64,000 bases of DNA from Pelagibacteraceae bacterium. Lineage in GTDB: Bacteria > Pseudomonadota > Alphaproteobacteria > Pelagibacterales > Pelagibacteraceae. The stretch is taken from NCBI GenBank assembly GCA_008638205.1, contig VTPO01000004.1:1-64000 (forward strand). The letters are read 5' to 3'. A program made the translations under genes and the position numbers. The notes beneath the pieces are model-generated. The model was not told the DNA's origin. It made no database searches and worked only from the letters and a program-made list of their open reading frames with translations. Of the stretch, positions 16,024 through 61,488 are shown piece after piece. Within the stretch, counting starts at the first letter, position 1. Each line of letters starts with the position of its first letter.

Positions 16024-16028
16024 ATTTT

Positions 16029-17141
16029 TTAGTTTAGAGAGACTGATTCCACAATTTCCAAAATAGATGCTTTGGAGATAATGGGAGCTTTACTTGAGGC
16101 TATTCCATTTTTAGCAATTAATAAAATCATTTCCTCGTAACTCATATTAAGATTTAAAAAACATGATCTGAAAAAATATCCCTTGCTTAAGCCCGGCATA
16201 AGATTTGCTTCGATGAAATGAGGTTCGTTTAAATGATTCATTTTAATATCAATACGTCCTAAAGATTTTCCACCCAATGCAATAAAAGACTTTTTAGCTA
16301 AATTGCACAATTGATTAAATATCTCTTTGTCGGTTACGGCAATGACTACTTCTTCATCATTTTTTTTAATATCAAAGTCAAGAATACAATGGCCATTAAT
16401 ATTTTTATCAACCATAATCTCAACAGGCATTGCATTTAAAGTTCCACTAATACTATCTTGCAAAATTCCAACACTATATTCTTTTCCAGAGAGAAAAGTC
16501 TCTACTAGAGAAGTGGATTTTTGTTTTATTTTAATATCTAGCACCTTTGCTTCGAAACTTTCAAAATCATGCACAACAGATTTAAAATCTACACCTCTAC
16601 TATCTCCACCGGTTACAGGCTTAATAAACAAAGGAAATTTAACTGGTAAAGATTCTTTATTTGGATGCTCTCCAGGCTCTGCGGTAAAAAAGTCAGCAGT
16701 TTTAATGTCGGCTTTTTGCATGATCTCTTTTGCTCTACTCTTGTCATGCTCGTACTCTAACGCCTCTCTTCCTGATGCAATGTAAGATATTCCATGCGTT
16801 TCAAGATAATCATTTAACCAAATAACCCTGTCGTTAAATGTAAAATATTTAACACCTGAGAAAACCAAATCTGGCTTTCTTAAAGCTAATTGCTTTAAGT
16901 CATTTTCAGATTTTATTTCCGTAATAATTACACAGTTGTATGCTGATGATAATATATTAAAAATGGAATGCTCATCCCAAACAATCGCAACATTTTTTTG
17001 ATTTTTATTTGGATTCAGGCCCTTCGGAACAATAAGCACTTCAATTTTCTTATCACTTTTTAATATAGCTGGATGCTTTACTTTAAAAGGGATGATCTTT
17101 TTTTCGATCGTTTTAATACTATCAGTTCTCATATCTTTCAT
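16029..17141 (-). CDS. D-alanine-D-alanine ligase-like ATP-grasp protein
   Basis: A 370-residue protein with an ATP-grasp fold. Residues ~130-345 contain ATP-binding elements (FPLFIKPVTGGDSRGVD, LVETFLSGKEYSVGIL) and the Mg-binding end GRIDIKMN..N.PHFIEANLMPGL, close to the D-Ala-D-Ala ligase pattern GR.D......P...E.N..PG. The first ~40 residues are an extension unlike Ddl, and the region between differs from Ddl enough that I do not call it ddl. It likely ligates a carboxylate to an amine via acylphosphate; substrate unknown. It stands alone, facing the ABC exporter pair, with a structured 185-nt leader upstream. Confidence 0.7.
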   Translation of the reverse strand: MKDMRTDSIKTIEKKIIPFKVKHPAILKSDKKIEVLIVPKGLNPNKNQKNVAIVWDEHSIFNILSSAYNCVIITEIKSENDLKQLALRKPDLVFSGVKYFTFNDRVIWLNDYLETHGISYIASGREALEYEHDKSRAKEIMQKADIKTADFFTAEPGEHPNKESLPVKFPLFIKPVTGGDSRGVDFKSVVHDFESFEAKVLDIKIKQKSTSLVETFLSGKEYSVGILQDSISGTLNAMPVEIMVDKNINGHCILDFDIKKNDEEVVIAVTDKEIFNQLCNLAKKSFIALGGKSLGRIDIKMNHLNEPHFIEANLMPGLSKGYFFRSCFLNLNMSYEEMILLIAKNGIASSKAPIISKASILEIVESVSLN

Positions 17142-17149
17142 AAATTTTA

Positions 17150-17327
17150 ACTTTCTAACAAGCAGTAGGTTACATTCAGAGCAAAGCCTGTGAATGTTCC
17201 ATAATTTTAGATCGGTACTTTTCGAAAAATACTTACCAAGGCGTTGGGAATGACGAAATAATTAGTTATGGTAGTATCTAAAAAATAGATAGTAGCACAT
17301 AGTCTTGCTAATAAGAAGCTTATTTTT
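17150..17327 (+). ncRNA. Candidate structured RNA (small RNA or leader); strand uncertain
   Basis: No ORF is supported here, but several stems are visible. A closing pair joins 17156-17162 and 17304-17310 (one mismatch). Others are a 7-bp hairpin 17172-17178/17191-17197, an 8-bp stem 17199-17206/17264-17271 enclosing a GGTA/TACC hairpin, a 6-bp hairpin 17275-17280/17286-17291, and a plus-strand terminator-like hairpin 17310-17315/17319-17324 followed by TTT. It may be a plus-strand small RNA ending at the tRNA, or a minus-strand 5' leader of the ATP-grasp gene. No known family was recognised. Confidence 0.35.
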
Positions 17328-17401
17328 GGTGGTCCTGTTAGGATTCGAACCTAAAACGCTTGTTTCGAAGACAAGAATGATATCCATTTCACTACAAGAC
17401 C
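17327..17401 (-). tRNA. tRNA-Arg (anticodon UCG)
   Basis: Read on the minus strand it folds as a complete cloverleaf. The acceptor GGTCTTG pairs with CAGGACC (one G-U). There is a 4-bp D stem, a 5-bp anticodon stem CTTGT/ACAAG with loop CTTCGAA (anticodon TCG), a 4-nt variable region and T stem TTAGG/CCTAA with loop TTCGAAT. A discriminator A and an encoded CCA follow. It is 75 nt including CCA. It should read CGA and other CGN Arg codons. Confidence 0.95.
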
Positions 17402-17423
17402 ATAAAGATGTTATATCAGGATA

Positions 17424-61114: not shown

Positions 61115-61199
61115 TTACGAATTGTCTTTGAATCAGTTTCAGAAAGTTTTATATTATTGGTGTTGGTTTTCCAACTATAACGATAAACGAAATTCGTAA

Positions 61200-61425
61200 T
61201 AAACATTTTGGACCAGGGGGCGGTACCCTGCACCTCCACCATTTTACAACTCATGGGGGTGAAATAGGCTCGACAGATGTCTAAAAGTTTTTCTTTCGTT
61301 CGGTATTGTTCCGCCGTAACGGGCTACATTTTAAATGCTAACGAAAGTTACGCTATTGCTGCTTAATTAACTTCGGTTAATTAAAAAGCAGGGGTCCGGG
61401 GCACCTTGCAACAGAACGCCCCACT
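61200..61425 (+). ncRNA. ssrA: Transfer-messenger RNA, permuted (two-piece) form
   Basis: The acceptor piece comes first. It has a T-arm-like hairpin (CAGGG 61214-61218 / CCCTG 61226-61230), then CACCTCC, a discriminator A and CCA (61239-61241). After only 13 nt the coding piece starts with GGGGGTG (61255-61261), which pairs with CACCTCC, followed by AAATAGGCTCGACAG. A P2 helix joins 61206-61213 with 61279-61286. The tag reading frame is 61337-61366 (ANESYAIAA, stop TAA), and the stop lies in a 9-bp stem with a TTCG loop. The two ends of the gene are approximate. Confidence 0.93.
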
Positions 61426-61488
61426 ATTAATTAAAACATTATATTATCCAACGATTATTTTTAAAAATATATAATATAATTTAAATTA

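Follow-up and report, generated by a model that had tools for sequence, protein, structure and literature searches.

A conserved structured leader of a sporadic SAR11 ATP-grasp ligase gene is probably a cis-regulatory RNA

We identify, in a 64,000-nt stretch of Pelagibacteraceae DNA (the window), a 185-nt gap (17142-17326) that we read, at a probability of roughly 70%, as the minus-strand 5' untranslated leader of an ATP-grasp ligase gene, carried within a single-gene mobile cassette that is sporadic in SAR11 and in the class. The leader holds conserved sequence and at least two hairpins, P2 and P4, that are kept by compensatory or wobble changes. It moves with the gene and is missing with the gene from empty sites. 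Judged from sequence comparisons, it is probably a so far undescribed, narrowly distributed cis-regulatory RNA for one gene, and probably acts on its own mRNA by controlling translation or stability.

Results

A noncoding gap with unremarkable single-sequence folding

The gap separates the start codon of the ATP-grasp gene from the 3' end of tRNA-Arg(TCG) (17327-17401, minus strand). Because both flanking genes are on the minus strand, it lies downstream of the tRNA, a same-strand neighbour outside the conserved leader, and upstream of the ATP-grasp gene. Its longest open frame has 40 codons, and the gap contains no credible gene; the original prediction had likewise seen no ORF. Compared with shuffled sequences, its single-sequence folding energy is unremarkable on both strands (plus strand, z = -0.85, with 42 of 200 shuffles folding as well; minus strand, z = -1.73, with 9 of 200). 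Several possible stems are present, in line with the proposal of at least five, but those proposed mostly differ from the conserved ones described below. The suggested long-range closing pair (17156-17162/17304-17310) contains a mismatch, and the conservation seen in relatives begins only downstream of its outer arm. A terminator-like hairpin had been placed at the tRNA 3' end; scans of both strands of the gap found no terminator-like site. The Rfam 15 covariance models, whose use on the gap had been proposed as a check, gave no family above the gathering threshold and matched the adjacent tRNA alone; the original prediction had recognized no tmRNA, SRP RNA or RNase P motif here. At permissive thresholds, PYLIS_5, snoZ267, SpF41 and DdR6 appeared as sub-threshold matches at chance level and were set aside.

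Leader and gene form one inserted unit

In the extremely compact genomes of SAR11, spacers are very short. A search of same-genus genomes with window positions 17100-17420 gave matches of two kinds, to the tRNA alone in G002, G003 and G005 and to the gap alone in G003 and G002, the G003 gap match reaching 71% identity over 17167-17285. It is this comparative signal, together with the covarying hairpins described below, that exceeds chance. In both G003 and G002, the gap sequence stands directly upstream of an ATP-grasp homologue, with no tRNA there. At the site that corresponds to the window, the ABC-2 permease stop codon in G002, G003 and G005 is 0-20 nt from tRNA-Arg, and both gene and gap are absent. 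As the site is empty in three genomes and both parts occur elsewhere in two of them, gap and gene were gained (or lost) together as one unit of ~1.3 kb (16024-17326, minus strand, break points uncertain by ~20 nt), and this explains the large gap in a compact genome. These results strongly support the earlier alternative of a minus-strand 5' leader of the Ddl-like gene, since the sequence accompanies the gene in unrelated neighbourhoods and is lost with it from the empty site.

A sporadic gene of variable surroundings

The presumed target of the leader is an accessory gene of 370 codons (16029-17141, minus strand) whose product has a C-terminal ATP-grasp domain of the D-Ala-D-Ala-ligase-like type (PF07478, Pfam E 4.7e-20). 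The product scores 86.8 bits against a TIGR01205 cut-off of 245.65 and falls under every listed NCBIfam Ddl cut-off. It is probably not the cell-wall Ddl, to judge by these scores, because another Ddl in the same genome (G000:C13) passes the cut-off with 257.9 bits. Homologues share motifs such as FSGVKYF and EANLMPG. Searches of PADLOC and PHROGs with the ligase returned no match, and its AlphaFold model (pLDDT 48.5) is too poor for use.

The gene is rare. Counting the window's own genome, carriers number 6 among 297 genomes in the order, 10 among 397 in the family and 4 among 240 in the class; two genera, the first of them large, have 4 among 300 and 2 among 169. Named relatives are uncultured Pelagibacter and Pelagibacteraceae genomes and one other alphaproteobacterium. 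Gene neighbours differ almost everywhere; a single sub-clade (G029, G642, G671) has a common site, beside a gene that by eye resembles carbamoyl-phosphate synthase. Viral contigs carry the ligase gene inside operons, without the leader. Two IMG/VR loci (L024, L050) have it as an apparent auxiliary gene, one copy following an ORF that looks methyltransferase-like by eye. Near the G002 copy, two adjacent ORFs (L060:5306-7481) look EgtB/EgtD-like by eye, as in ergothioneine biosynthesis. In the G003 homologue, the aligned start lacks an ATG (L006 ~1615-1663), and TTG seems to be used instead.

This distribution raises the idea that the leader, instead of regulating the gene, is a cassette end used in recombination or attachment. 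Sporadic occurrence (10 of 397 family genomes), the empty site, the intact tRNA-Arg just upstream in the window, and duplications of tRNA 3' ends just upstream in G762 and G082 would all suit such a role. In most carriers, however, no tRNA adjoins the leader; no common element follows the ligase stop codon; the tRNA-end repeat is not found in the window; no integrase was recognized among the neighbours when translations were read by eye; and the RNA-type G-U compensation described below would be unexpected. We therefore regard a mobility signal as improbable. In G762 (L052:722-796, 1302-1360) a complete tRNA is followed, immediately upstream of the leader region, by a 59-nt copy of a tRNA 3' end, and the arrangement in G082 (L053:1205-1294, 2561-2619) is the same, the copies being of tRNA-Val type in G762 and tRNA-Ser type in G082. 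These attachment-site-like direct repeats suggest tRNA-targeted integrative elements beside the ligase gene.

Anatomy of the leader

Twelve leaders from distant SAR11 genomes with different gene neighbourhoods, partly related to one another, were aligned (12-13 leaders were used overall). The part conserved across these contexts extends from a TATCTAT box to the start codon (17142-17291, minus strand). From 5' to 3', it comprises the box, present in most leaders (17285-17291); a core of ~80 nt (17205-17285), supported by the alignments and by covariance-model matches, with the consensus UUUUUUAGAUAYURCC ... GGYAAGUAUUUUUCGAAAAGUACCSAUCUAAAA; a P4 hairpin of variable sequence; and a short stretch before the start codon. 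The distance from TATCTAT to the end of GATAYT is 42-47 nt in nine relatives and 19 nt in the window, and the G003 leader has no box. Core differences between G000, the window's own genome, and G001 all fall within the P2 loop.

TATCTA(T) also stands upstream of the ligase gene in carriers that have no core (L010, G888 and G316; loci L010, L022 and L045). It does not fit a sigma-70 -10 box, and TATCTAT occurs 23 times in the window against 13.9 expected. Two candidate features were rejected: a 12-codon leader peptide, MCYYLFFRYYHN, which is readable in G000 and G001 only, and a UAUCUA/UAGAUA pairing that would oppose P1, whose partners do not covary in G610 and G002.

Covariation supports P2 and P4

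The core helix with the best support is P2, in which the 5' arm AGAUACUACC (17270-17279, minus strand) pairs with the 3' arm GGUAAGUAUUU (17227-17237) around one bulged base. Across the 12 leaders (AGAUACURCC with GGYAAGUAUUU), 90% of cells are paired and two pairs are changed on both sides, by C-G/U-A and G-C/A-U exchanges. The core can be drawn in two ways. Extension of P2 by an outer UUUUU/AAAAG helix gives 90.7% of cells paired; a three-way junction that adds P1 and P3 (GUAUUUU-AAAAGUAC) gives 83.5%. Both added helices are alternatives to extended P2 and show no both-sided change: P1, formed by UUUUAGAU (17276-17283) and AUCUAAAA (17205-17212), has 80% of cells paired and is broken in G477 and G481 and partly in G029/L008, and the P3 hairpin GUAUUUUUCGAAAAGUAC (17215-17232) has 86%. 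Predicted minimum-energy folds of single cores take the junction form in G000, G001 and G307 and the extended-P2 type in several others.

P4 (ACAUUCA...UGAAUGU, 17172-17197, minus strand) lies 30 nt before the start codon in the window. Five of its pairs are changed on both sides, and its covariation is 0.293 against 0.186 for shuffled alignments (1 of 500 as high). Single-sequence folding of the P4 region gives a mean z of -1.68 over 13 leaders; folding of the core is weak (mean z = -0.80). In the 12-row alignment, P2 and P4 together reach a covariation of 0.237 against 0.145 +/- 0.021 for shuffles (0 of 500) and at most 0.150 for slid controls, figures that we take as support rather than proof because, as the tool itself warns, related sequences can score above shuffles of this kind without any structure. 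The percentage of paired positions is likewise above all 500 shuffles and above the slid controls. The search for compensatory changes in relatives that had been proposed thus returned covariation in both helices.

The same features could be read at the level of DNA, with TATCTAT, the GTATTTTTCGAAAAGTAC dyad and the P4 dyad serving as promoter or operator sites for some regulator and the region having no RNA function. The spacing between TATCTAT and the core is nearly constant, TATCTA also precedes the gene in the three core-less carriers, and the sequence of P3 is almost perfectly palindromic around a central TCGA, as such a reading would have it. P2 and P4 are harder to accommodate. The P2 arms are separated by ~35-40 nt, and the loop between them varies in length, which is unusual for an operator, and the halves of P4 diverge between species yet stay complementary, often by G-U, which breaks a DNA dyad. 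In the alignment, G029, G642 and L008 have inner P4 stems that deviate from perfect complementarity by G-U only, which points to RNA rather than to a DNA dyad. We consider a purely DNA-level function unlikely.

The core was found before one gene only

A covariance model of the core (CM R1) gave six strong matches (E < 1e-8) in 197 SAR11-family genomes, all directly upstream of the ligase gene, and eleven (E < 1e-5) in 19 selected genomes, one per genome and each at a ligase leader; since most matched sequences had built the model, the informative part is the lack of strong matches elsewhere. The next match after the strong six (G239, 39.5 bits, E 7e-4) falls inside an ABC transporter coding region and was judged to be chance. 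Among 279 genomes of the class, nothing further was found. Strong matches only before the ligase gene therefore indicate a leader of one gene rather than a widespread aptamer.

With filters off, CM R1 gave no match at the leader position of the distant carriers G888, G316, G762, G950, G082 and L010. By eye, G888 and G762 show apparent resemblances. Pattern scans of viral DNA for the core found none, and 80 chance loci gave no CM match. As distant carriers (G888, G950, L010, G316) and phage copies show no core match, the ligase can work without the core.

The original prediction had also offered a plus-strand small RNA of ~165 nt, and the gap is indeed noncoding and foldable on either strand. 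A free-standing or plus-strand RNA is nevertheless very improbable. Whatever the neighbourhood, order and spacing of the conserved features follow the minus-strand start codon, the tRNA-proximal part is unconserved, the plus-strand fold is no better than shuffles and no plus-strand terminator was found. A trans-acting small RNA would have its own promoter and terminator; here, strong matches are always coupled to the gene, none lies away from it, and a terminator was not found.

Discussion

We propose that the leader is transcribed within the ligase mRNA and would act in cis. The core may switch between two exclusive folds, extended P2 and the P1/P2/P3 three-way junction, and a protein or small molecule could bias one of them. 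The ligase itself would be one candidate signal, and a metabolite tied to its reaction another. P4, close ahead of the start codon, might then relay the state of the core by affecting how ribosomes gain access or how the mRNA decays. Control of translation or stability is likelier than transcription termination, because scans of the leader found no intrinsic terminator. The leader-less phage operons fit a control element that is useful in the host chromosome and dispensable for the enzyme.

A bolder version of this proposal is a new riboswitch class that senses a substrate or product of the ligase, spread as a self-contained cassette among streamlined marine genomes and absent from phage operons. 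The leader stands upstream of the ligase gene across contexts, as a riboswitch in a 5' untranslated region would (a placement read from sequence), and P2 and P4 provide structure with covariation. Aptamers typically, if not universally, precede several genes of a pathway, and the core was found before one gene family only. We hold this class assignment to be doubtful.

Riboswitches and candidate structured RNAs have been described in 'Candidatus Pelagibacter ubique' (PMC2704228), SAM-V among them (PMC6061858). The present element resembles these in being a structured leader before a SAR11 gene, and translational control is likely here, as with them, because no obvious terminator is seen. It differs in having no Rfam match, another target gene and a tie to one accessory gene; the words "ligase" and "ATP-grasp" are absent from the main text of PMC2704228. 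With ribosomal-protein-type autoregulatory leaders, it shares the link of an RNA element to a single gene family and a hairpin near the start codon, whereas its target is an enzyme, no Rfam leader matches it and self-binding would here be conjectural.

Phages and islands also bring single-gene insertions of the 'moron' type. The cassette is similar in being a lone gene with its own leader between host genes, but the phage copies of the ligase gene lie inside operons and have no leader. That a 150-nt structured leader is kept on a sporadic gene in compact SAR11 genomes suggests regulation worth its cost. If our reading is correct, it adds an undescribed leader RNA family, gives a handle on the reaction of a ligase also present on marine viral contigs, and provides a case of an RNA control element travelling as the cargo of a single gene.

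Elsewhere in the window, at 61123-61457, lies a tmRNA gene of the permuted alphaproteobacterial type (RF01849, RF04321), with the tag peptide ANESYAIAA.
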